A stretch of DNA of 35,975 nt from Syntrophomonadaceae bacterium (lineage in GTDB: Bacteria > Bacillota > Syntrophomonadia > Syntrophomonadales > Syntrophothermaceae): positions 1 through 35,975 of the forward strand of contig JAAYAC010000044.1 of assembly GCA_012719535.1 (NCBI GenBank), read 5' to 3'. A program made the position numbers and the translations under genes. This document shows, piece by piece, positions 5,189 through 20,358 of the stretch. Numbering within the stretch: the first letter of the stretch is position 1; each line of letters opens with the position of its first letter. A model generated the notes under the pieces. It did not search any database. It saw only the letters and a program-made list of their open reading frames with translations, and had not been told where the DNA came from.

Positions 5189-5217
5189 ATGTTAGCACTT
5201 GCCAAATTTCCAGTCAA
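5189..5217 (-). promoter_or_regulatory. Sigma-A-type promoter of the T-box/alaRT operon
   Basis: On the minus strand, TTGACT (5217-5212) and TAACAT (5194-5189) are separated by 17 bases. Transcription would begin near 5182, just before stem I of the T-box. The -35 matches consensus at 5 of 6 positions and the -10 at 4 of 6. Confidence 0.65.
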
Positions 5218-5310
5218 CCACAAAATTATTTCCTGCCGTAGCTGAATTTTTCTCGAACATTTTGGCCGGGTGGTGCATAACATTTACTTAGATTTTGGGG
5301 AGGTGGGATT

Positions 5311-5715
5311 ATGTCAAGTTATCCTGTCGCACCACAGCTCGAGCTAACCGGCGAAGAAACCCGTGTGGCGCAAAAGGTCATATCATATTTCAGGTCGCCC
5401 CGGATGAGCTTACAGGAGAAGATGTGGAATGCCAAACTCATCGCCCTTTATGACCTGGAGCAGCACCACTTTACGAATCCTACCGAAAAGGAAAGGATCG
5501 CCCGGTTCACCAGTATCCTGGATAGCATTCTTACCAAGCTAAACCCCCAGGTAACGGGACATTTCTCCCGCAGCTGCCTGGCCGCTGGTAATGCTCTCCA
5601 GGATCGACATGGGAGCTGTACAGGCGCCGGCAGCAAAAACACCTTCCCGGTTGGTGATAACTCCGCCGGTCACATTAATAAAGCCATGGTCATCACGGTT
5701 GACCCCCAGGAGTGA
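5311..5715 (+). CDS. Small hypothetical protein with convergent 3' overlap
   Basis: ATG at 5311 follows GGGGAGGTGGGATT, a strong ribosome binding site. The first 76 or so residues look like real coding sequence: a helical, charged protein with SLQEKMWNAKLIALYDLEQHHF and TEKERIARFTSILDSILTKL. From 5539 on, the frame runs antisense into the end of the HdrA-like gene, and its translation becomes Gly/Cys/Asn-rich and unconvincing. Either the gene truly overlaps its convergent neighbour by 177 bp, or an original stop near 5545 was lost by a small indel. No family was recognised and there is no membrane segment. Confidence 0.55.
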   Translation: MSSYPVAPQLELTGEETRVAQKVISYFRSPRMSLQEKMWNAKLIALYDLEQHHFTNPTEKERIARFTSILDSILTKLNPQVTGHFSRSCLAAGNALQDRHGSCTGAGSKNTFPVGDNSAGHINKAMVITVDPQE

Positions 5716-6537
5716 GGCCAGGTATGCGACATCGCTCCCGGGTAGTAGGGGAGGGCACAGGATGACCCAGTCATAAACCTCTGCGGTAACGGCACCGGTA
5801 GCCGGGTTATCGTATCTCAGTTCCAGCCGGCCGCGTGAAGTAGGGAAAACCTTACCGGGCATGGCTCTAACATAGCTAATGCCAGGCGAGCGATGCTGGT
5901 AAATAGATTCGTATCTCTGGCGGTCCATGTAGAAGACATCCGTCCGGGCCCCGGGTAGCCGGTGACGCAAAAGGCCGGCCAGCTTCGGTACATAAAAGCA
6001 ACACACGCGGGAACAGTACGGTACTCCCCCCCGGGTATCGCGCGAGCCGGTGCACTGGATGAAGGCCACCCGTGGAGCCGGGCCCAGGCTTTCCGGAACT
6101 TCCCGCATAATGGTTTCCAGTTCCACGGCGGTAATGACCCCGGGCAGGCGCGCATAACCGAATTCACCTTTCCTGTCCAGGGGAAGTAGTGACAAGCCAA
6201 GAGCCAGGAGGATACTGCGCACCTGCAGGCGCTCGACACTTTCACCGGCCCGGAACGTGACCGAGTATCCCGTCCGGTTTCGTTCAATCCCGGTAACTTC
6301 AGAGGATATGTGAAGCTCGATGAGTTCTTCCTCACGTACCCGGGCTACCTTCTGGTGGACCAAACAAACCCCGCACGATTGGCAGAACCCGTCAATGGCC
6401 TTGCAGTTGTAGCGCCGGGCCTGGCCACCCGGTTCAGCCGCTTTCTCAACTATCACCGATGCTATTCCTTGGCGGGCCAGCGGCAGACCGGCCTCCAGGC
6501 CGGCTGCGCCCGCCCCGATTATCATAACCTCAGCCAT
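5539..6537 (-). CDS. HdrA/QmoA-like FAD and Fe-S oxidoreductase subunit (short form)
   Basis: This 332-residue flavoprotein has a Rossmann FAD motif (IIGAGAAGLEAG, about 6-17) and VEKAAEPGGQA. A cysteine insert follows at Cys45, Cys52, Cys55 and Cys58, then the HdrA hallmark FIQCTGSRD with Cys162 and YCSRVCC (Cys175, 179, 180), and finally a GVFAAGACTAP segment near the end that closes the FAD site. HdrA usually has about 650 residues with extra ferredoxin domains; this is only the flavin core, near the size of QmoA. Such subunits pass or bifurcate electrons between ferredoxin, NAD or thiol partners. It lies downstream of metF, 262 bp away on the same strand, so it probably serves the methylene-H4F reductase module, but co-transcription is not proven. 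Confidence 0.82.
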   Translation of the reverse strand: MAEVMIIGAGAAGLEAGLPLARQGIASVIVEKAAEPGGQARRYNCKAIDGFCQSCGVCLVHQKVARVREEELIELHISSEVTGIERNRTGYSVTFRAGESVERLQVRSILLALGLSLLPLDRKGEFGYARLPGVITAVELETIMREVPESLGPAPRVAFIQCTGSRDTRGGVPYCSRVCCFYVPKLAGLLRHRLPGARTDVFYMDRQRYESIYQHRSPGISYVRAMPGKVFPTSRGRLELRYDNPATGAVTAEVYDWVILCPPLLPGSDVAYLASLLGVNRDDHGFINVTGGVITNREGVFAAGACTAPMSILESITSGQAAAGEMSRYLGV

Positions 6538-6799
6538 AAAATCTCACTCCAATAGTCACTGATAACACTGATTATATGTGACTGACAGTGACTTATATGA
6601 GTTGTGTCTATCAGCGTGCATCTACGGTTTCATTTTCAGGGCAGACGTGCATGCCGCCCCACCGCCACCAGTAGAGGGATGAAAAAGCGCGTGCATTGTC
6701 GGAAATAACTGGGAATTTTTAATTCTTCATTCTGAATTCTCAATTCCTGTTATGATTCAGATCCCCAATTATGAATGAACTGTCAGTGTTCGTCCGAAT

Positions 6800-7723
6800 T
6801 CATTCAATTTCCGTAACCGGTCGGGGGTAGAGACCGGCGCGCCGGACGATCTCCGGGACGACCTCCTCCCAGGCAACTGCCATGATATGGATGCCTCGTA
6901 CACCGGGAATCTCCCGGATTTGGGCTATTTGTTCCACCACAATATTTATGGCCTCTTCCTGTACATCCTGTGCCTTTTCCAGGCGTTCGCAGATATCGTC
7001 AGCCACCATCATACCGGCCACGTTTTTTTGCATGTAACGGGCCATCCGTGCGGATTTTATGGGCATTACTCCCGCCAGAACCGCCGCCCTCTCATGCAGC
7101 CCCTGTTCGCATACCATCTCCATGAAGCGGCGAAACCGCTCCATCTCCAGTACACACTGGGTTTGAACGAATTGGGCTCCCGCCTCGATTTTCTTCTTCA
7201 GCCTGGTGACCCGAAAAGGGAAAGGATCGGCAAAGGGGTTTTCCACACAGCCGATAAAAACGTCAGGTCTAACCTTCATCTCTTCGCCACAGATAAACCT
7301 GCCTTCATCGCGCATAGTCCTGACCGTATGAATCAACTGAATGGAATCCAGGTCAAAGACATTTTTGGCCTCCGGGTGGTTGCCGAAACTCTGGTGGTCC
7401 CCGGTGAGACACAGGATGTTTGGTATACCCAGGGCCGCCACCCCCAGCACGTCGGACTGCAGGGCAATTCGGTTACGGTCCCGGCAGGTCATTTGAATGA
7501 CCGGCTCGAGTCCTTCCTGCTGCAAAACGATGCCCGCCGCAATGCTGGACATCCTGACAATGGCTGTCTGGTTGTCAGTGACATTGAAGGCATCCGCATA
7601 GCCCCGCAAGAGGTTTCCTTTCTTGCGGACAAAAGCAGCATTGCAGCTCTTGGGTGGGCCAACCTCAGCGGTGACGGCAAAACTGCCGCTCTGCAAAATT
7701 CTCTCCAGTTTACTCCTCGCCAT
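6800..7723 (-). CDS. metF: Methylenetetrahydrofolate reductase catalytic subunit
   Basis: MetF is a TIM-barrel enzyme reducing 5,10-methylene-H4folate to 5-methyl-H4folate. Typical segments are FAVTAEVGPPKS near the N-terminus, TDNQTAIVRMSS, LCLTGDHQ, GCVENPF, GAQFVQTQCV and AGVMPIKSARMARYM. ATG at 7723 (MARSKLERIL) is preferred because it gives the standard 307-residue protein and overlaps the end of metV by 14 bases; the upstream extension reads as junk. The partner MetV upstream identifies the Wood-Ljungdahl/acetogen type rather than the stand-alone NADH-dependent type. The electron donor is likely supplied by the Hdr-type proteins encoded on either side. Confidence 0.92.
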   Translation of the reverse strand: MARSKLERILQSGSFAVTAEVGPPKSCNAAFVRKKGNLLRGYADAFNVTDNQTAIVRMSSIAAGIVLQQEGLEPVIQMTCRDRNRIALQSDVLGVAALGIPNILCLTGDHQSFGNHPEAKNVFDLDSIQLIHTVRTMRDEGRFICGEEMKVRPDVFIGCVENPFADPFPFRVTRLKKKIEAGAQFVQTQCVLEMERFRRFMEMVCEQGLHERAAVLAGVMPIKSARMARYMQKNVAGMMVADDICERLEKAQDVQEEAINIVVEQIAQIREIPGVRGIHIMAVAWEEVVPEIVRRAGLYPRPVTEIE

Positions 7724-8384
7724 CCGGTACCAACCCCTCCCGCACCATTCTCCTGGGGCCGCCGTCACGACTCTTTGCCCAGTTCTTGGGTAAAACCAGC
7801 CTTTCCAGGTTATCCAGCCGGCCCAGGCGTTCGAGCCGTTCATAGATCAGGTGCCAGGCACATTCCACCTCGGCGGATATCTCGCATTTTCCGTTCTGTG
7901 ACCCGCCACAGGGACCGTTTAAAAGGCTTTTTGAGCACCGGGCCACCGGGCAGATGCCCGCGGTCAGGTCCAGGATGCAGTCCCCGCAGGCCTGGCATCT
8001 TTCTTCAAAGCGGCCGTGACGAACAGGCATTCCCATAAAAGTGGTGTTTAACCCAGGTATGACGGGAGAACTGGGGAAGAATTCGGCTACCGCCTGAACC
8101 CCCACCCCGCAAGCCAGTGAAAGTATGGCATCAAATGACGCAAGGCGGGGTTTAAGCTCTTCCAGCAACTCGAATTCGCACTGGCGGGCAACGCAGGTCC
8201 AGTCGAGCGACACATGCAGGTCTCGCAAGGCCATACCCAGGAGGTGCGCCATGGTTTCCGCTTCGCGGGCCCCTCCTGTCTGGCACACGGTTACACACCC
8301 CCCGCAGCCGACCACCAGTATTCTCGAGTAGCCTTTCACCTTCGCGACGATTTCTTCTACAGGTTTCAGTTCCCCGACGATCAT
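7710..8384 (-). CDS. metV: MetV, zinc/Fe-S partner subunit of methylenetetrahydrofolate reductase
   Basis: The 224-residue protein matches the MetV type, annotated as methylene-H4F reductase C-terminal domain protein. The N-terminal part carries VVGCGGCVTVCQTGG (Cys27, 30, 34) and DWTCVARQC. The C-terminal part has CQACGDC (Cys130, 133, 136), GICPVARCSKSLLNGPCGG and KCEISAEVECAW. MetV forms a complex with MetF and relays electrons to it in acetogens. Its start overlaps the upstream Hdr/MvhD-like gene by four bases (ATGA) and its end overlaps metF, so the three are tightly coupled. All expected cysteines appear present. Confidence 0.9.
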   Translation of the reverse strand: MIVGELKPVEEIVAKVKGYSRILVVGCGGCVTVCQTGGAREAETMAHLLGMALRDLHVSLDWTCVARQCEFELLEELKPRLASFDAILSLACGVGVQAVAEFFPSSPVIPGLNTTFMGMPVRHGRFEERCQACGDCILDLTAGICPVARCSKSLLNGPCGGSQNGKCEISAEVECAWHLIYERLERLGRLDNLERLVLPKNWAKSRDGGPRRMVREGLVPDGEE

Positions 8385-9775
8385 TTCCTCTCACCCACCT
8401 TTGTAGCCAGTTCTTCCGGGTGTTCCGCTGCCGACAGACCGAGCAGCTTGACCCGGAGGGTAATACCTAGCCGGTCCAGCAGGGTATTCAATCGCCGGAC
8501 CCGTACCTGAAGCCTGCGGTTTTGATGTTCATGCTGGCATTTGCCCTGATAACAGGCTACCACATATACGTCCCGGTTGCTTTCGCTCAAGGTACGCAGG
8601 ATAACGTTTTCCCCGATCGATGCGGCACAAGGGAAAAGTCGTAATTCGTAATTAAGGCCTTGGCCATGTATCAACCCGGCCGCAGCGTTCTCACAGGCCA
8701 GAACATGAGGAATCCGGGTAGGCGCTGGCTTATCTACCACCTTTTTTATCGCCTGGGCCGGGCATTCAGCATAACACAGGCCGCAGCCCCGGCAGGATAG
8801 CGTATCTATCCGGCAGGCTTCCCGGTAAAGATTTTGGAATAACTTGTCTCGGTGGAATTCTACGGCCTGGTGGGGACAAAGACGGAAGCAGGTGAGGCAA
8901 AAAGCGCACCTGTCCGCGTCGATTTCATAATATTTCTCGGCTCGAACTCGGCCTGTGGCCATCCTGGCCACCTGAGCAGCAATGGCAGCAATTATGACCT
9001 CCTCTTCCGCCGCCGTAAGCACACCTTCCGGGTCGGGGAATACCCAGATACCTTCCCGGTTGGTCCTGCCCGGATAGCTGTCCAGGTTGTCCTCGCCCAG
9101 GCCGAGGAGTTCGTGGTATCTTAAACCATCATCCGTATGTTCCCAGCGGGGGGCTACCAGTATATCATAGGGCAGAGTTATTTCCCGGCCGATGCCGGTA
9201 TCCAACACCCGGGCCTCGAAGCGGTCAGGGGCGCCAGCCGCAGTCCCGATTAGCGGTACCCGGTCGGTACGGATAAAAACCGCCCCGCGAGCCCGAGCTG
9301 TGGAATAGAGGGCCTCCCCGTTGGCAAAGCCTACCTGAACATCGTCGGTAATAACCCATACCCGGTTCTTGGCGGCCAGGGAGATGATCTGGGAAAAGGC
9401 TTGCGTATAGACTCGCCGGGTAACCCCCATCAAAACAAAGAGGATGGAGCAGCCGGCCACTTCCCCGGGTGGTAGGCCGCTGAGAACGGGACCCGCCGGA
9501 TCCGGTACGATGATAATCCCCCCAACCTCGATTTCCTCAATGGCGGAGCCATGGAGGCCAACCGTGAACCTACCCGCCTTGCCGCGCACATAGGCCAGGT
9601 CTTTACCCCAGGCAGTCTGCCCGGAAAACTGCGTCGCCGGGTAAGGAGGTTTTCGCGAAAAAGCCCAGATTACCGGCTGCTGACCGCTGATAACCTTGGC
9701 CAGGCGCCACGCCCTTTCGTTCCCTCCCCATACCAGGACTCGGGGATTGACCTGACAATCCTGATAAATCCTCAT
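8381..9775 (-). CDS. HdrA/QmoB-like protein with two [4Fe-4S] sites and a C-terminal MvhD-like domain
   Basis: 464 residues in three parts. Residues 1-270 resemble a Rossmann HdrA/QmoB region but lack GxGxxG (LVWGGNERAWRLAK at 14-27), so FAD binding there is doubtful. Residues 290-338 form a bacterial ferredoxin domain: Cys290, 293, 296, 300 and Cys328, 331, 334, 338. Residues 355-464 align by eye with MvhD, the hydrogenase delta subunit, keeping Cys361, Cys383, Cys408 and Cys413 but losing the second Cys of the usual CNWC motif. It is the first gene of the hdr-metV-metF run, with GGGGAG upstream of ATG 9775. It probably links the flavoprotein or an outside donor to MetVF. No HdrB, HdrC or hydrogenase gene is beside it. 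Confidence 0.8.
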   Translation of the reverse strand: MRIYQDCQVNPRVLVWGGNERAWRLAKVISGQQPVIWAFSRKPPYPATQFSGQTAWGKDLAYVRGKAGRFTVGLHGSAIEEIEVGGIIIVPDPAGPVLSGLPPGEVAGCSILFVLMGVTRRVYTQAFSQIISLAAKNRVWVITDDVQVGFANGEALYSTARARGAVFIRTDRVPLIGTAAGAPDRFEARVLDTGIGREITLPYDILVAPRWEHTDDGLRYHELLGLGEDNLDSYPGRTNREGIWVFPDPEGVLTAAEEEVIIAAIAAQVARMATGRVRAEKYYEIDADRCAFCLTCFRLCPHQAVEFHRDKLFQNLYREACRIDTLSCRGCGLCYAECPAQAIKKVVDKPAPTRIPHVLACENAAAGLIHGQGLNYELRLFPCAASIGENVILRTLSESNRDVYVVACYQGKCQHEHQNRRLQVRVRRLNTLLDRLGITLRVKLLGLSAAEHPEELATKVGERK

Positions 9776-9827
9776 AAACCATCTTCTCCCCGTCGAATCG
9801 CCCCAACATCATCTATTAATGTATATA

Positions 9828-9856
9828 ATCATAAGACAACCCTTGACGGCGAGCAA
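9828..9856 (-). promoter_or_regulatory. Candidate promoter of the hdr-metVF operon
   Basis: On the minus strand TTGCTC (9856-9851) and TATGAT (9833-9828) are 17 bases apart, about 53 bp before the ATG at 9775. The -10 is good (5 of 6) and the -35 weak. Confidence 0.4.
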
Positions 9857-9922
9857 GCCATGGGACAAACTTCACAAACCACCGGTGGTTGTTACGTGAC
9901 TCCGTTATGCACAGGTACAAGC

Positions 9923-9960
9923 AAAAAGAACCTTCCTCACATAGAAAGAAAGGTTCTTTG
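9923..9960 (-). terminator. Rho-independent terminator of hsp20
   Basis: A perfect 10-bp stem, AAAGAACCTT (9925-9934) with AAGGTTCTTT (9950-9959), is followed on the minus strand by a T-run. It lies 45 bp after the hsp20 stop. Confidence 0.8.
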
Positions 9961-10004
9961 CTTAGTGAACTAATGTAGGTTTAAACGCGCGAATCCATGG
10001 TTTC

Positions 10005-10430
10005 TTACTGGATCTCCAGCCGCCTGCTGCGGCCCTGGCGTTCGTCGGTCTTGGGGATTCTGATTTCCAGGATGCCGTTGTTGTAGGAGGCGGTACTGGC
10101 CTCGGTGTCCACATAGGGAGGCAGCGGAATGGTGCGGTAGAAACGCCCGTAGTATCGTTCAGACCGGTGGATACCCTGCTCCGACACGTCACGGGTTTTC
10201 TTGATTTCCCCGGACAAGCTGAGTTGGTTTTCGCTAACCGACACTTCTATGTCATTCTTGGATTCCACCCCGGGCACCTCGGCGGAAACCACTACTTCAC
10301 TGTCGGTTTCATACATATCTATGCGGGGGTTTTGGGCAATCCTGGGAAAATCAAACATGTCTTCCAGTTCCATTCTCAGGTCCCGAAAGGGAAAGTGTTC
10401 CCGAAAAGGCATCCAGCGCATCAAGGACAT
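10005..10430 (-). CDS. hsp20: Hsp20/alpha-crystallin small heat shock protein
   Basis: A 141-residue ATP-independent holdase chaperone. The alpha-crystallin domain covers about residues 40-135, with DMYETDSEVVVSAEVPGV, the beta-strand set around NQLSLSGEIKK, the FYRTIPLPPYVD segment, an A-x-x-x-NGIL-type motif (ASYNNGILEIRIPK) and a short C-terminal tail. The N-terminal arm is Phe- and Met-rich (MRWMPFREHFPFRDL), as usual. ATG at 10430 follows GAAGGAGGTG. It stands alone between a terminator and the divergent speE gene. No CIRCE element (TTAGCACTC repeat) is visible upstream, so the heat control is not evident. Confidence 0.93.
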   Translation of the reverse strand: MSLMRWMPFREHFPFRDLRMELEDMFDFPRIAQNPRIDMYETDSEVVVSAEVPGVESKNDIEVSVSENQLSLSGEIKKTRDVSEQGIHRSERYYGRFYRTIPLPPYVDTEASTASYNNGILEIRIPKTDERQGRSRRLEIQ

Positions 10431-10574
10431 GGTTTCACCTCCTTCATACTAGGATTATCCACCTGTATTTTGCCTGTTTGAGGTGCAAAATATTCTCTTA
10501 AGGGAAGATCCGGGAAGGATTAACGATTTTTCTGTCTAAACAATAATAATGCCCGGTCAAATGGAGGTGATTAT

Positions 10575-11402
10575 ATGGGCATCTGGTTGCAGGAGGAGCA
10601 TACCCGGGGCTACGTTGTGAACTGGCGGCTGCACAACATTATCCACACCGAGACGACCAGGTACCAGGAACTGGCAATCGTGGATACCTATGAATGGGGG
10701 AAAGCCCTGGTACTGGATGGAGTCGTCCAGACTACGGAAAAGGATGAGTTTGTTTATCACGAAATGATTGCCCATGTGGGGATGATGGCTCACCCTTGCC
10801 CGCGAAAGGTTTTGATTATCGGCGGCGGTGACGGGGGAGTCCTGCGGGAGGTGCTGAAACACGATTCGGTAACATCAGTGGATCTGGTGGAAATCGATGA
10901 ACGGGTTATCGAAAACTGCCGGTTGTATCTTCCCACTATTGCCTGCGGGTTTTCTGATAATAGGGCTAACATTATCATTGAGGATGGTTTAAAATACGTT
11001 AAGAACATCAAGAACAGATATGATGTAGTAATAGTAGATTCTTCCGATCCGGTCGGCCCGGCAGTGGAACTGTTCGGTGACAAATTTTACCGGGATGTTT
11101 ACGCCATTTTGCATGAGGACGGGCTGATGGTAGCCCAGGCGGAATCTCCCCTGTTTTTTGGTGAGTCGTTTGCCCAGGTCTTTGGTAACATGCGGGCCAC
11201 CTTTCCCATAGCCGGGGTATACCTGGCCTGTGTGCCCACCTACGTAAGCGGGTTCTGGGCTTTTGCGGTAGGTTCGAAGAAGTACCACCCGGAGCAGCCG
11301 GGGAAGGAGCGAAAACCTCTCACCGGCCTGAAGTACTACACCCCGGATATCCACCGGGCGGCGTTCGTTTTGCCGCCCTTTGTCCGTGACCTGGTCCGGT
11401 GA
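10575..11402 (+). CDS. speE: Spermidine synthase (polyamine aminopropyltransferase)
   Basis: 275 residues, the normal family length. It transfers an aminopropyl group from decarboxylated S-adenosylmethionine to putrescine. Visible landmarks are YQELAIVDTYEWGKALVLDG, the GGGDGG nucleotide motif at 83-88, VDLVEID (105-111), the active-site segment DSSDPVGPA (155-163) and YVSGFWAFAVGSKK. ATG at 10575 follows GGAGGTGATTAT. It is divergent from hsp20 and separated from iorA by about 200 bp. No speD or speA/B gene is in the window. Confidence 0.94.
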   Translation: MGIWLQEEHTRGYVVNWRLHNIIHTETTRYQELAIVDTYEWGKALVLDGVVQTTEKDEFVYHEMIAHVGMMAHPCPRKVLIIGGGDGGVLREVLKHDSVTSVDLVEIDERVIENCRLYLPTIACGFSDNRANIIIEDGLKYVKNIKNRYDVVIVDSSDPVGPAVELFGDKFYRDVYAILHEDGLMVAQAESPLFFGESFAQVFGNMRATFPIAGVYLACVPTYVSGFWAFAVGSKKYHPEQPGKERKPLTGLKYYTPDIHRAAFVLPPFVRDLVR

Positions 11403-11600: not shown

Positions 11601-13352
11601 ATGAAGAAGTTGATGATTGGCAATGAGGCTATTGCCAGGGGAGCGTATGAAGCGGGGGCGACCGTGGGTGCCGCCTATCCCGGTACTCCCAGTACCGAAA
11701 TAATGGAGTTCTTCAAGGAATATGAGGGGGTTTATGCTGAGTGGGCCCCCAACGAGAAGGTGGCTCTTGAAGTGGGCTGCGGGGCTTCCCTGGGTGGAGC
11801 GCGCACTCTGGTCGCCATGAAACACGTGGGGGTGAATGTCGCGGCAGATCCCCTTTATACTTTTTCCTACACCGGGGTGAATGGCGGGCTCGTCCTGGTA
11901 TCTGCCGATGATCCGGGGATGCACTCGTCGCAGAACGAGCAAGACAACCGTGGCTACGGAAAATTTGCCAAGCTGCCCGTTCTGGAGCCTGCCGATAGCC
12001 AGGAGGCGAAAGACTTCGTTGCCTTGGCCTTTTCTTTAAGTGAAGAATTTGACACGCCGGTGATGGTCAGAGTGACCACCCGCCTGGCCCATTCTCAAAG
12101 CATGGTGGAGGAGGGGGAACGCCGGGAAATACCCCTGAAGCCTTACGTTAAAGATGCTGCCAAGTACGTCATGCTGCCGGGGCATGCCCGTCTGCGGCAT
12201 GTTGAGGTAGAGAAAAGGATGGCGGCGCTGCGCCGGTATGTGGAAGAGAGCCCACTCAACCGGGTGGAATGGGGAAGCAGGGAAACCGGAGTTATTACCA
12301 GCGGCGTGTCTTATCAGTACGTGAAAGAGGTTATGCCCGAGGTATCGGTGCTCAAGCTGGGTATAGTCAATCCATTACCGGAGAAGCTGATCCGCGACTT
12401 TGCGGGGCAAGTGAAGAGGGTTGTCGTGGTAGAGGAGCTGGAACCGGTTATTGAGGAGCAACTGAGAGCGTGGGGAATCGCCGTTCAGGGCAAAGATGTC
12501 CTGCCCCGCACCGGGGAGTACAGCCCTGAATTGCTGGAGGAAAGGCTGCTGGGGCGGAAGGCTGCCGAAGCATATGCGCTGGATGCCGCCATACCACCCC
12601 GACCGCCGCTCATGTGCCCGGGGTGCCCCCACCGCGGGGTGTTCTATACTCTCAACCGGATGAAATTGACCGTGTGCGGTGATATTGGTTGCTACACGCT
12701 GGGGGCTTTGAAGCCTCTGGCCGCCATGGATACCACCATCTGTATGGGGGCCAGTATTGGCACGGCGCTGGGCATGGAAAAGGCCCGGGGGGCAGAATGG
12801 GCCCGTAAAGCGGTGGCAGTCATCGGGGACTCCACCTTTGTACATTCCGGTATCACGCCTTTGATAGACGTGGTGTACAACCAGGGAATGTCGACAGTTA
12901 TTATCTTGGATAACGAGACGACGGCCATGACGGGACACCAGAACCACCCGGCTACCGGTCTTACCTTGAATAACACCGACACCGTGCGCTTGGATCTGGA
13001 ATCCGTCTGCCGGGCGGTGGGGGTGAAGAGGGTTCGGACCGTGGACCCGCTGAACCTGAAAGAGCTGGAAAATGCCCTGCAAGAGGAGCTGGCGGCCCGT
13101 GAGCCCTCGGTAATAATTGCCAGACGGCCCTGTGCCCTGATTCCGGGTGCGGGCCTGGGAGAAAAATCGTACTATGTTGACACCGTAGCCTGCAAGGGTT
13201 GCAAGCTCTGTATTAAGCTGGGATGTACTGGCGTATACTGGATTGAAGAAGAAAAACTGGCCAGGATCAACCCCGACCTCTGTGTCGGGTGTGGCCTGTG
13301 CCTGCAGGTATGCAAGCTGGATGCTATCCTGGAAGGGGAGGGAAAAGAATGA
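11601..13352 (+). CDS. iorA: Indolepyruvate ferredoxin oxidoreductase, alpha subunit
   Basis: 583 residues. IorA oxidises aryl 2-oxoacids (indolepyruvate, phenylpyruvate) to acyl-CoA using thiamine diphosphate and reduces ferredoxin. The N-terminal pyrimidine-binding domain has GNEAIARGAYEAG and YPGTPSTEI. The thiamine-diphosphate core has CPGCPHRG, CMGASIGTALG and VIGDSTFVHSG with ILDNETTAMTG. The C-terminal ferredoxin domain has CKGCKLCIKLGC and CVGCGLCLQVC, enough for two clusters. ATG follows GGGGGAGCAGA. It overlaps iorB by four bases. The following HisC-type aminotransferase would supply the 2-oxoacid, pointing to aromatic amino acid breakdown or its reverse. Confidence 0.95.
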   Translation: MKKLMIGNEAIARGAYEAGATVGAAYPGTPSTEIMEFFKEYEGVYAEWAPNEKVALEVGCGASLGGARTLVAMKHVGVNVAADPLYTFSYTGVNGGLVLVSADDPGMHSSQNEQDNRGYGKFAKLPVLEPADSQEAKDFVALAFSLSEEFDTPVMVRVTTRLAHSQSMVEEGERREIPLKPYVKDAAKYVMLPGHARLRHVEVEKRMAALRRYVEESPLNRVEWGSRETGVITSGVSYQYVKEVMPEVSVLKLGIVNPLPEKLIRDFAGQVKRVVVVEELEPVIEEQLRAWGIAVQGKDVLPRTGEYSPELLEERLLGRKAAEAYALDAAIPPRPPLMCPGCPHRGVFYTLNRMKLTVCGDIGCYTLGALKPLAAMDTTICMGASIGTALGMEKARGAEWARKAVAVIGDSTFVHSGITPLIDVVYNQGMSTVIILDNETTAMTGHQNHPATGLTLNNTDTVRLDLESVCRAVGVKRVRTVDPLNLKELENALQEELAAREPSVIIARRPCALIPGAGLGEKSYYVDTVACKGCKLCIKLGCTGVYWIEEEKLARINPDLCVGCGLCLQVCKLDAILEGEGKE

Positions 13353-16324: not shown

Positions 16325-17875
16325 TCACGCCCACATATAGGTCAGTATAGCGGCCACCAAAGTCAAGGCTGCCGATATGACCACCGCCACCTTGATCACG
16401 TCTGATTCGGCTCCCAGGGCATCGATAGTGGCCGCGGCGTTCTGCAGCTTGGCCGGCGAGATGACGCTGGCCAAACCGCCGGCAACTGCGGTCCCGGCGG
16501 TGACCACCAGAGGGTCGACCTTGAGGATTGCCGAGGTGAGGAGATGGTATTTGGTAAACAGGGCTATGGTCGAAGCCTCGCTGCCGCTCACAAATCCACC
16601 GAGTAGACCCAGGAAAGCCGCCACGGCGGGATACAATCCTCTAAAAAAATGGGCAGAACTTGTGGCCAGGACAGAAATCATATTGTAGTCCGGGTTGGCC
16701 AACTTCCACTCTTCTCCGGCGGGGACGAAGCCGGACAGGTTCATGACATAAGCGATGGCGAAAAAGATGGCGGCGGAAAACACCGGACGGGGTGCCCGGG
16801 CCAACCACTTGGTCAGGGTTTCCTTCCACTGGGTACGGGTGGGTTTGATAAACGGCACCGCCACCAGCGTGGCAATTATTACCCAGGTGTAAGCATTCCA
16901 TAGCATTCTGGTCATGATAGGCTTGGCACCGGGGATTATTTGTACCGGCATGGCCAGTTGTTTGAAGAGGTAGTCAAACACCGGGGGGTAAAAATTAATG
17001 AACAAGCAGGAGATGATCAGGATAAGCCAGGGGCTCAGGGCCACCAGGAGAGGCATGGAGTTTTCTACCGCGCGTTCCCGGTCAGTTATACAGGAACGGT
17101 CCAAGATAGGTTGGCGCCGTAGCTTCATGTAGACAAGCATCACTGCGACCGTTGCCATTCCGGCGATAACCCCGGTCAGGACAATGCCTTTGCCAATGTG
17201 GGCGACCACCACGGCGGACAATCCCATGGTCAGCCCGGCCAGCAGGCAGGGGATAAACCCTTCCCTTATCTGCCGGAAACCTCCCACGATCCACAGCATG
17301 CCCAAACCGATAAGGGTCGAGATAACCGGCATAAACCTGGAAAATATCAGAGCCGAATCGGTTAGCGGCGTTCCGGTCATGTCCGCGTAGATGACCAGGG
17401 GAGCACCCAGCAACGCATAGGTACACAGGGAGTCAAACCCCAGAGCGGGTAGGGCTACTGCTACAAAGGTGGAATACCCCAGTGCCACCATGATGGGTGG
17501 CAGGATGGAAACCGGGGTAGCTCCTACTGCCACCAGCAGGGTTCCAATCCCCATGTTGATTATCATTATCTGGACCGCCCGGTCGTTCTTGGCCAGCGTC
17601 TTGACAAAAATCACAATACGTTGCAGGGCTCCCGTGCACTCCAGAAAGGTGATCTGGAAAATAGAGGTTGCCACCATTAGCGATACCGGAAAGGAAGCCA
17701 CTATTCCGGCCAGGCTTGCTGTTAGTCCGACCTCCAGCGAGGTATGAAAGAAGAGATAGGCGACGAGCATTACCAGCAGCCATCCTACCAACCCACTCGT
17801 GTCTGCCGGCCAGTTCAGGCAAACCAGCAAAGCCAGCACCGCCATTATGGGCAGCAAAGTAAGCAATACTTCCAT
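16325..17875 (-). CDS. lldP: L-lactate permease family transporter
   Basis: 516 residues with about 12-14 membrane segments, the LctP/LldP family size. Family-type segments include ECTGALQRIV, GATPVSILPPIMVALGY, SGSEASTIALF near the C-terminal third (the typical GSN/GSE loop) and SPAKLQNAAATI. ATG 17875 (MEVLLTLLPIM) is used because GGGAGG lies 9 bases upstream; an upstream ATG abuts that site. The family imports lactate or glycolate with protons. No lactate dehydrogenase gene is adjacent. It is divergent from the ferredoxin and aldehyde oxidoreductase pair, so carboxylate transport for that pathway is possible. Confidence 0.87.
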   Translation of the reverse strand: MEVLLTLLPIMAVLALLVCLNWPADTSGLVGWLLVMLVAYLFFHTSLEVGLTASLAGIVASFPVSLMVATSIFQITFLECTGALQRIVIFVKTLAKNDRAVQIMIINMGIGTLLVAVGATPVSILPPIMVALGYSTFVAVALPALGFDSLCTYALLGAPLVIYADMTGTPLTDSALIFSRFMPVISTLIGLGMLWIVGGFRQIREGFIPCLLAGLTMGLSAVVVAHIGKGIVLTGVIAGMATVAVMLVYMKLRRQPILDRSCITDRERAVENSMPLLVALSPWLILIISCLFINFYPPVFDYLFKQLAMPVQIIPGAKPIMTRMLWNAYTWVIIATLVAVPFIKPTRTQWKETLTKWLARAPRPVFSAAIFFAIAYVMNLSGFVPAGEEWKLANPDYNMISVLATSSAHFFRGLYPAVAAFLGLLGGFVSGSEASTIALFTKYHLLTSAILKVDPLVVTAGTAVAGGLASVISPAKLQNAAATIDALGAESDVIKVAVVISAALTLVAAILTYMWA

Positions 17876-18004
17876 GAAAACCATCCTCCCGTTCTGCTTG
17901 TTTTTCGTTTGGGGATAGACACAACACCTGAGCCTATTCGGCACGTGAAAGTGAATTCCTGCTCAAAGAAAAAATTTATATTGCTTGCCCGGAGACCGGT
18001 TTGG

Positions 18005-18116: not shown

Positions 18117-18560
18117 TTGGCCAGGTTGCTGAGAGTAGGCGATCTGGGAAAATGTATCGGGTGTTATAACTGCATGTTCGCCTGTGCCCGCGAGGTGATG
18201 GGCAGTTATTCCCCGTTGACCGCGGCGATACGTATCAGGACCGGCGGCGGATATCATAGCAAGATGGCGGCCGATGTCTGCCGGGCTTGCCGGGAACCGG
18301 CCTGTGCTGCTGCCTGTGAGGAAGGCGCACTTCGACCGCGGAAAGCTGGAGGCGTTCGGTTTGTATCTGGCCAGTGCACGAGGTGCGGTAAGTGCGGGGA
18401 AGCTTGCCCGATCAAATACCTGGAGTTCAACCCCGTAACTGGGCAACCTATCGTTTGCCGGCACTGCGGCGTGTGTGCCAACTATTGCCCACACGGGGTT
18501 CTGACTATGGAGGAGGTTAACAATGCTCAACCGGGAATACATCAGGGTGCTGCACGTTGA
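18117..18560 (+). CDS. Four-cluster [4Fe-4S] ferredoxin subunit, partner of aldehyde oxidoreductase
   Basis: 147 residues from TTG 18117, seven bases after GGGAAGGTG. Sixteen cysteines fall in four groups: CIGCYNCMFAC, CRACREPACAAAC, CTRCGKCGEACP and CRHCGVCANYCP. This is the pattern of HycB/NrfC-like electron-transfer subunits and of the small subunit AorA that accompanies some tungsten aldehyde oxidoreductases. Its end overlaps the oxidoreductase start by 38 bases, so the two are translationally linked and probably form a complex. No signal peptide is present, so it is cytoplasmic. Confidence 0.9.
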   Translation: MARLLRVGDLGKCIGCYNCMFACAREVMGSYSPLTAAIRIRTGGGYHSKMAADVCRACREPACAAACEEGALRPRKAGGVRFVSGQCTRCGKCGEACPIKYLEFNPVTGQPIVCRHCGVCANYCPHGVLTMEEVNNAQPGIHQGAAR

Positions 18561-20358
18561 TCTGGGGGAACAGAAGTGGAAGGTTGCGGAACGGGAAGAC
18601 CTCTACCGCTATCTGGGAGGGGTGGGAGTGGGAATTCGCCTGCTGGACGAAAACGTGTTTTACAACCTCGACCCGCTGGATCCGGCCCAGCCCATAATCT
18701 TTTGTGTCGGGCCTCTTTCTTCCGTGTATCCGGTCATGACCAAGTCAGTTTGTCTGTTTCGCTCCCCCCTGACCGGGGAGCTGGGTGAAAGCTATGCCGG
18801 AGGCCGGCTAGCCATGGCCATGGTCTATGCCGGTTATGATGCCATCGTGCTCACCGGGGAAAGCGATGTCCCGGTCTACCTGGACATAGGGCCTGACCAG
18901 GTAGAATTTCGCAATGCCGAGCCGTTATGGGGGGTTGGAAGCGGGGAAACCGGGCGTTACCTGCGGGAGCTGGCCCCCGGCAGGGGATTTCGCTCCATTG
19001 TTCGTATCGGCCCCGCGGGGGAAAACCTGGTTCACTTTGCCAACCTGAATGTTGATACCTTTCGTCATTTTGGCCGGCTGGGGTCGGGGGCCGTTTTCGG
19101 CAGCAAGAACCTTAAGGCGATGGTGGTTTACGGTAATCTTGACCACCCTATACCTAATGCACGCCTGCGCGACTACCGGCGTACTTACCAGGAAGTTCAC
19201 AAGAAGGTGACCGAAACCGAACTGATGGAGAAATACCACAACCTGGGGACTCCGGTTAACATCATGCGCCTGAATGAAATGAATGCCTTGCCGACGCGCA
19301 ACCTGCAGCAGGCTACCTTTGAAAAAGCCCGCGAGATATCGGGCGAAGCTTTTGCGGACGAAAGGCTAACCCGCAAGCTTTCCTGCGTCGGCTGCCCCAT
19401 AGGTTGCATTCATATGGCGTCCCACCGGAAGCTCTTCGGACCCAAAAGCCATGACTATGAAACCTCGATTCTGGCGTATGACCATGAACTCATTTTCGCC
19501 CTGGGAAGTTTTCTGGGAACCGCCGACAAAGACCAGTTCTTGACCTTGCTGGAGGAGGTGGAGGACATGGGTTTCGATGTAATGAGCGTGGGGGTGCTGC
19601 TGGGCTGGCTGACGGAGGCCTTTGCCAACGGGCTAGTGGGGGAGAAAGAACTGGGTACCAGGGTGGAGTTCGGCTTCACGGAAGGATACCTGAAGGTGAT
19701 GCGGGGTATAGCTCACCCGGAGAACGAGCTTTACCGTTTGTTGGGCAAGGGGACCGAGGCTGCGGCTGAGCAACTGGGCGGGCTGGATTATGCCATGACG
19801 CTGGGCCGTACCGAGATGACCGGCTACCATACCGGCTATGGGGCTGCCCTTGGCCAGGCGGTAGGTGCCAGGCATTCCCACCTGGACAACGCCGGGTACT
19901 CGTTCGACCAGTCCCGGGACTATGACGATATTCCCGGGTTTGTGTCCGCTATTTTCGAAGAAGAGCTCAACCGCTGCGTAACCAACTGCCTGGTCATGTG
20001 CCTGTTTGCCAGGGCGGTCTACGAATTCCCCATCATTGTCCGGGCCCTGAAATCGGTAGGTATTGAAAAGTCCGAAGAGGAACTAAGGGAACTTGGCCGG
20101 GAAGTATACCGCAACAAGATTCGGGTCAAGCAGAAGATGGGATTTGACTTTAAAAAGTTACGTTTCCCGAAGCGCTTCTTTGAAACCGAGTGCCTGCACG
20201 GGCGGCTGAATGAGGAGACTATGCAACGGATGCTGGAACTGTATATACAGGAAGTGGAACAGGTAATGGCCGAAGATAAAGGGGCCCGCAGCTTTGCTGC
20301 CGGCCCTGGTGAACAGCACCTGCGGGGAAAAACCTCCTCGCCCGGCCCGTTGCATTAG
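18523..20358 (+). CDS. aor: Aldehyde:ferredoxin oxidoreductase family tungsten enzyme
   Basis: 611 residues, the usual AOR length. These enzymes carry a tungsto-bispyranopterin and one [4Fe-4S] cluster and convert aldehydes to acids, or the reverse with low-potential electrons. Seen here: GGVGVGIRLL near residue 32, SPLTGELGESYAGG, the cluster ligands CVGCPIGC, EMTGYHTGYGAALGQAVG and a distal Cys in NRCVTNCLVMCLF. The GTG/ATG region has GGAGG before ATG 18523. The ferredoxin gene upstream overlaps it. The last 35 residues are low-complexity. Its stop overlaps the convergent gene's stop. Substrate specificity cannot be read from the sequence. Confidence 0.92.
   Translation: MLNREYIRVLHVDLGEQKWKVAEREDLYRYLGGVGVGIRLLDENVFYNLDPLDPAQPIIFCVGPLSSVYPVMTKSVCLFRSPLTGELGESYAGGRLAMAMVYAGYDAIVLTGESDVPVYLDIGPDQVEFRNAEPLWGVGSGETGRYLRELAPGRGFRSIVRIGPAGENLVHFANLNVDTFRHFGRLGSGAVFGSKNLKAMVVYGNLDHPIPNARLRDYRRTYQEVHKKVTETELMEKYHNLGTPVNIMRLNEMNALPTRNLQQATFEKAREISGEAFADERLTRKLSCVGCPIGCIHMASHRKLFGPKSHDYETSILAYDHELIFALGSFLGTADKDQFLTLLEEVEDMGFDVMSVGVLLGWLTEAFANGLVGEKELGTRVEFGFTEGYLKVMRGIAHPENELYRLLGKGTEAAAEQLGGLDYAMTLGRTEMTGYHTGYGAALGQAVGARHSHLDNAGYSFDQSRDYDDIPGFVSAIFEEELNRCVTNCLVMCLFARAVYEFPIIVRALKSVGIEKSEEELRELGREVYRNKIRVKQKMGFDFKKLRFPKRFFETECLHGRLNEETMQRMLELYIQEVEQVMAEDKGARSFAAGPGEQHLRGKTSSPGPLH

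Follow-up and report, generated by a model that had tools for sequence, protein, structure and literature searches.

The stretch of DNA analysed here (the window) is 35,975 nucleotides long and carries on its minus strand P0001, MetV, MetF and HdrA332, four genes whose arrangement is that of an operon-like cluster (Table 1). The MetF orthologues align from residue 41 of the open reading frame 7843-6800, and the start was therefore taken at 7723; MetV overlaps MetF if the latter starts where its orthologues do. A gap of 262 bases separates MetF from HdrA332, which carries E141 and K185 (equivalent to E356 and K409 of HdrA, see below) together with C45, C52, C55 and C58. No match to HdrB or HdrC was found in the 36-kb window, nor any to PF02754 on the window's contig (C21); HdrBC is present elsewhere in the host genome, on contig C110.

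Table 1. Features of the P0001 gene cluster, with positions in the window
Feature	Position	Strand	Remarks
P0001	8381..9775	-	Fusion of a degenerate HdrA module, a dicluster ferredoxin and MvhD; 464 aa; heads the cluster
P0001 residues 1-275	8951..9775	-	HdrA/TrxR-type module; canonical FAD motifs all gone
P0001 residues 17-22	9710..9727	-	GGNERA where the GxGxxG loop is expected
P0001 residues 283-350	8726..8929	-	Ferredoxin domain; eight Cys for two predicted [4Fe-4S] clusters
P0001 residues 355-464	8384..8713	-	MvhD/FlpD domain; C361, A364, C383, C408, C413
MetV	7710..8384	-	DUF5981, MTHFR C-terminal protein; four-base overlap of its start with the P0001 stop
MetF	6800..7723	-	Methylenetetrahydrofolate reductase; sole MTHFR match in the genome
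HdrA332	5539..6537	-	Short HdrA-like flavoprotein, 332 residues; FAD motifs intact

Over positions 5200-10600, neither promoter-like sites (5, shuffled mean 3.7) nor terminator-like sites (4, shuffled mean 6.3) were clearly in excess of shuffled sequences. A 14-pair hairpin followed by T-rich sequence lies at 9925-9959 on the minus strand, between an Hsp20 gene and P0001, and is possibly the hsp20 terminator. Near the cluster are genes for an indolepyruvate ferredoxin oxidoreductase alpha subunit (11601-13352, match above the cut-off), a lactate permease (16325-17944) and an aldehyde ferredoxin oxidoreductase (18523-20358). Further away, at 919-2502, the window encodes a beta-CASP metallo-hydrolase whose best NCBIfam match is the type VII CRISPR Cas14 model; as the score, 442.6 bits, is below the cut-off of 800, this protein is more likely an ordinary RNase.

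An earlier note on this DNA had assigned an HdrA-type region to the N-terminus of P0001, and profile–profile comparison with the neighbouring HdrA-like family bears this out (97.9% probability, E 4.7e-13). The same comparison places GGNERAW (residues 17-23) on the P-loop of that family, confirming that this heptad stands where GxGxxG would be expected. The ferredoxin domain, which the note had not mentioned, is complete, with Fer4 matches and cysteines at positions 290, 293, 296, 300, 328, 331, 334 and 338. The C-terminal part matches Pfam PF02662 (FlpD) at residues 380-453 with 41.9 bits against a cut-off of 22.3, and the best NCBIfam match of the whole protein is NF040770 (residues 265-460), at 55 bits against a cut-off of 1100 bits. 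The AlphaFold2 model of P0001, built with three relatives, is poor (pLDDT 50.3, pTM 0.43), so it was used for fold matching only. With this low-confidence model Foldseek returned HdrA chains first and MvhD chains at TM 0.60-0.63 over the target, the remaining matches having low TM. The same architecture recurs beside MetV and MetF in relatives, which argues against a chance arrangement.

Relatives were sought in 101 genomes, the window's own included. Among the matches listed from these, full-length or nearly full-length matches to P0001 occur in the host's family and its sister family, and those farther out are mostly shorter. Scanning 398 genomes of the phylum with a profile added further relatives among the matches listed. 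The comparisons below use 43 proteins, P0001 included, which are the top matches, among those listed, to a model built on P0001 relatives and hence a biased sample; G003 (f1, its loop also degenerate) and G291 were left out, being cut by contig ends. MetV was found in 42 of the 43 loci, MetF in all of them and a HdrA332 homologue in 42, with MetV and MetF in G012 and HdrA332 in G332 and G205 located by tblastn. The locus without a HdrA332 homologue (G388) lies on a contig that stops within MetF, and the one with no MetV match in the fetched stretch (G175) holds merely a distant relative. The commonest order is HdrA–ferredoxin–MvhD (as one or two genes), MetV, MetF and HdrA332, with HdrA332 placed elsewhere in G095, G258, G433, G182 and G175. 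HdrB-type genes occur in the fetched stretch of G433, G182, G096 and G175, showing that HdrBC is not missing throughout the group. A similar neighbourhood is described for 'Ca. Contubernalis', in which hdrA and mvhD genes adjoin the reductase genes (PMC10608574). In G095 (locus L040, 6456-14963), the genes flanking MetVF encode a separate HdrA-like protein of 359 aa, a degenerate HdrA–MvhD, a protein resembling HdrC and an HdrA-like protein of 1321 residues; the genome has acetyl-CoA synthase.

The motif alignments, which included relatives keeping separate HdrA and MvhD genes, show what the N-terminal module has lost. Intact members read GGGxxG, a Glu ending beta-2, LGG (or PGG), A-x-G and a final Gly. 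In f1 and f2, the two families closest to P0001 and including it, the P-loop, the beta-2 acid, the LGG segment, A-x-G and the last FAD motif are gone (in all eight members in the alignment, and in five in a second alignment), the LGG segment of P0001 and its nearest relatives having been lost by deletion. The segment carrying the equivalent of E356, and the equivalent of K409, are lost as well. These two residues, described as marks of bifurcating HdrA (PMC9430772, PMC12054007), were mapped on M. thermolithotrophicus HdrA (5odc_A) by profile alignment, and gaps in f30 and f1/f2 make their columns uncertain there. All 11 intact members have both residues; P0001 has neither, its E356 segment being deleted and its K409 equivalent replaced. 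When four motifs were scored (GxGxxG, beta-2 acid, A-x-G and the final FAD motif), all eight full-length f1/f2 members, P0001 included, had none, all 11 scored members of f7, f14, f56 and f125 had four, and the 13 members of f30 had three or four, a half-decayed, intermediate site. The remaining families are mixed, with no motif left in G095 (f36), G175 (f40) and G205 either; G172, without its N-terminus, received no score. The loss of the flavin site put forward in the earlier note is thus strongly supported by the absence of all four motifs together with LGG and the E356/K409 equivalents, and the alignments indicate that the HdrA module of P0001 descends from a flavoprotein of which every canonical FAD motif has been lost.

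Could the module still hold FAD or a different nucleotide in a non-canonical pocket, and so take part in flavin chemistry? In favour of this, the fold is still recognisably HdrA/TrxR-like and the module is under purifying selection in f2 relatives, but the four FAD motifs, the LGG segment and the E356 segment are lost together and no replacement glycine-rich loop was seen in the alignment, making this distinctly unlikely. The selection itself is plain in f2: the degenerate module has dN/dS values of 0.21-0.25 in three pairs, for which HdrA332 gives a similar 0.19-0.26 (for the host, synonymous sites are at or near saturation). This result also bears on whether P0001 is a functionless, decaying remnant beside a MetVF that, like that of C. 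ljungdahlii, works by itself with reduced ferredoxin. MetVF alone is described as sufficient in some clostridia (PMC8515935), but the twelve cluster cysteines of P0001 are kept, the gene stays beside MetV across families and dN/dS is about 0.2 in f2; we regard a remnant as extremely improbable.

The partner flavoprotein presents the opposite picture. In 38 of 38 fully readable separate HdrA332 proteins, GxGxxG, the acid (beta-2 Glu), GG, A/T-x-G, the final Gly and the four Cys are kept, which means that one flavin site decays while the other does not. At the E356 position, 37 of these proteins have Glu and one has Asp; at the K409 position, 27 have Lys and 11 have Arg. Four homologues were not scored in full: in G433 and G182 the module sits inside a long HdrA and the slice ends at the loop, G184 runs into a contig end, and G175 is partial. 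Their readable parts keep the motifs. The model of HdrA332 (pLDDT 70) matches HdrA chains and an HdrA-like protein of Hyphomicrobium denitrificans in Foldseek. The latter (6tjr), at rank 2 in that search, is also a full-length profile match to HdrA332 (E 2e-65); it belongs to another system, which we take to be the sulfur-oxidation Hdr-like system, and the likeness concerns HdrA332, not P0001.

At the C-terminal end, the cysteines listed in the earlier note are correctly numbered: C361, C383, C408 and C413 are present and the second Cys of CxxC is missing, residue 364 being Ala. The canonical pattern of CxxC with three further Cys is therefore not found in the MvhD domain of P0001, in which four of five Cys remain. 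These four are invariant in a ten-sequence alignment and in all 43 sampled proteins, among which the second CxxC position is Ser in 40 and Ala in three (all f1). The Cys is also missing from 14 proteins with all four FAD motifs; as Ser or Ala occurs even where the flavin site is intact, the cysteine change is not part of flavin loss, and by this comparison it is old, widely shared and unlinked to it. The earlier note had proposed a plain Fe-S relay relying on an HdrA-like flavoprotein. Of this, the flavin loss and the neighbour with conserved FAD motifs stand, a dependence of P0001 on that neighbour would agree well with them, and the coupling of the cysteine change to the flavin loss does not hold. 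With four invariant Cys there are enough residues for a [2Fe-2S] cluster, and the MvhD end is thus not necessarily impaired. The four that remain in P0001 are candidate ligands; the MvhD/FlpD family is described with four conserved Cys (PMC5736913).

Outside the 43, we looked at 14 further MetV loci (FlpD aligned in 11, frame translation in three), most of which have one long HdrA of about 800-1510 residues. That of G075 has 1487 residues, the length described for M. thermoacetica HdrA (PMC9430772). At the second CxxC position, nine of the 11 aligned proteins and G075 have Cys, and the two f4 members have Ser. In G306 and G329 (L126, L136), the MetV-adjacent MvhD has an in-frame TGA exactly at this position (CHY-TGA), possibly encoding Sec, and a review lists CxxU as a Sec motif of the MvhD/FlpD family (PMC13188914). 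The solved MvhD 9sfi_K carries a non-standard residue (X) at the same position. Cys, TGA or X at this position suggests that it matters in those complexes, and speaks for a reading in which its change would abolish or alter the [2Fe-2S] cluster, leaving an MvhD end that is no ordinary relay. In the sampled group, however, Ser or Ala stands there in 43 of 43 and the other four Cys are invariant, even where the FAD motifs are intact, and we judge an abolished or altered cluster unlikely. A link between the second MvhD Cys and a nearby HdrB was considered and rejected, as G063 and G354 (f4) and G433 and G182 (f51) read Ser despite a nearby HdrB match.

The host genome, which is 98.42% complete, also holds a second, canonical Hdr set on contig C110 (L054, about 8741-11200), with HdrABC, MvhD and Flox-like genes. 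The MvhD of this set has a TGA at the first Cys of the last Cys pair and its HdrA has a TGA in the N-terminal half, both of which are possible selenocysteine positions. The existence of this set in the same genome allows that P0001 might serve it rather than MetVF. But the set has its own HdrA with an intact loop and its own MvhD, and P0001 relatives lie beside MetV in 42 of 43 loci, so this reading is very improbable. As for the fate of the MetVF product, no match to the acetyl-CoA synthase family PF03598 was found in the host genome, there is one MTHFR match, and MetH has homocysteine methyltransferase, pterin and B12 domains; on this gene content, methyl-THF most likely goes mainly to MetH for methionine.

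Across the sample, nine of the 11 proteins with no FAD motif, all but those of G095 and G175, come from genomes with no PF03598 match, and 13 of the 14 with all four come from genomes that have one (the exception, G337, is 61% complete); in f30, PF03598 is found in 11 of 13. A tree of MetV and MetF, which is independent of P0001, groups f1 with f2 (UFBoot 99) and nests both inside a larger group without any PF03598 match (UFBoot 100). This tree has 41 taxa and is midpoint-rooted, omits G012, G175 and G205 of the 43 and includes G291, and several of its inner nodes are weak (33-77). The loss of acetyl-CoA synthase as the sole explanation of flavin loss was rejected, since G095 and G175 retain none of the motifs yet have PF03598; the tie between the two is only partial.

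MetV, MetF, an HdrA-like and an MvhD-like protein are co-encoded here as in the Hdr-type (type IV, 6S) MTHFR HdrCBA-MvhD-MetVF of Moorella thermoacetica and Sporomusa ovata. The HdrA of both species is described with more than one TrxR-like module (PMC9430772), whereas in the P0001 cluster, with no HdrB or HdrC in the window, two such modules are on separate proteins, one of them without the FAD motif. Most Moorella-type MvhD proteins read here keep CxxC, unlike P0001. Closer in gene content is hdrA-mvhD-metVF of Thermacetogenium phaeum (Tph_c15090-15120), the same gene set, described with no hdrBC beside metVF (PMC6895022). In G130, taken as T. phaeum, the fused orthologue keeps GxGxxG, the beta-2 acid and the last FAD motif, unlike P0001; it also has an N-terminal HdrA domain, and its genome has acetyl-CoA synthase. 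The HdrA2/type Ia HdrA–MvhD fusion has the same domain order as P0001, i.e. HdrA module, ferredoxin domain and MvhD, but P0001 scores far under the NF040770 cut-off and has neither the FAD motif nor an N-terminal HdrA domain. The Hdr-type MetVF is itself already known; on the present reading of the sequences, what is new is such a system with one HdrA module lacking its flavin site. No description of flavin loss in a MetVF-associated HdrA–MvhD protein was found in the accessible text of the literature searched, which comprised open-licence papers.

Our preferred reading, to which we give a probability of roughly 0.6, is that P0001 is a non-flavin relay, or a scaffold/accessory Fe-S subunit, of an Hdr-type MetVF reductase that has no HdrBC encoded next to it. 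We counted in its favour the motif loss, the motif retention in HdrA332, the gene neighbourhood and the selection in f2, and against it the poor P0001 model, the 262-base gap between MetF and HdrA332, the HdrB-type genes near some relatives, and G095 and G175, which lack all four motifs despite PF03598. In such a reductase, P0001 and HdrA332 would pair in place of the HdrA homodimer, giving an asymmetric assembly with one flavin. P0001 would offer two [4Fe-4S] clusters and one [2Fe-2S] cluster, and within the Hdr part HdrA332 alone would carry a flavin centre. The ferredoxin domain of P0001 may dock a donor, e.g. reduced ferredoxin, and its [2Fe-2S] cluster would exchange electrons with the FAD of HdrA332, from which they would pass to the [4Fe-4S] cluster of MetV, the MetF flavin and finally methyl-THF. 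Published work on related complexes bears on these contacts: in Sporomusa, HdrA, HdrB and MvhD baits are described to pull down MetF, and a MetV bait HdrA (PMC9430772), and in the Elp-Hdr structure electrons are presumed to move from the [2Fe-2S] cluster of the MvhD homologue to the other HdrA's FAD, by a mechanism stated to be unknown (PMC12350162). Reduced ferredoxin is the donor we favour because HdrA332 is a single TrxR-like module without a GltD domain, such as that described as added in M. thermoacetica HdrA (PMC9430772). In a more specific form, P0001 and HdrA332 would be an asymmetric pseudo-HdrA heterodimer in which the flavin-less half supplies Fe-S clusters in trans, and the relatives would record a stepwise change from a two-flavin system, by way of a second site in decay, to an anabolic and probably non-bifurcating reductase with one flavin. 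We put this form forward tentatively, at somewhat below even odds.

For acetogens and syntrophs, the way in which Hdr-type MetVF reductases take up and route electrons is described as unsettled (PMC8760232, PMC9430772). A natural version in which one of two flavin sites has been discarded suggests that the indispensable flavin is that of the short HdrA332, and this version occurs in hosts with no detectable acetyl-CoA synthase. The P0001 system may thus serve as a simpler complex for testing relay against bifurcation, and Syntrophothermus lipocalidus (taken as G001), with a 54% identical P0001 orthologue, would provide a cultured organism for this work.
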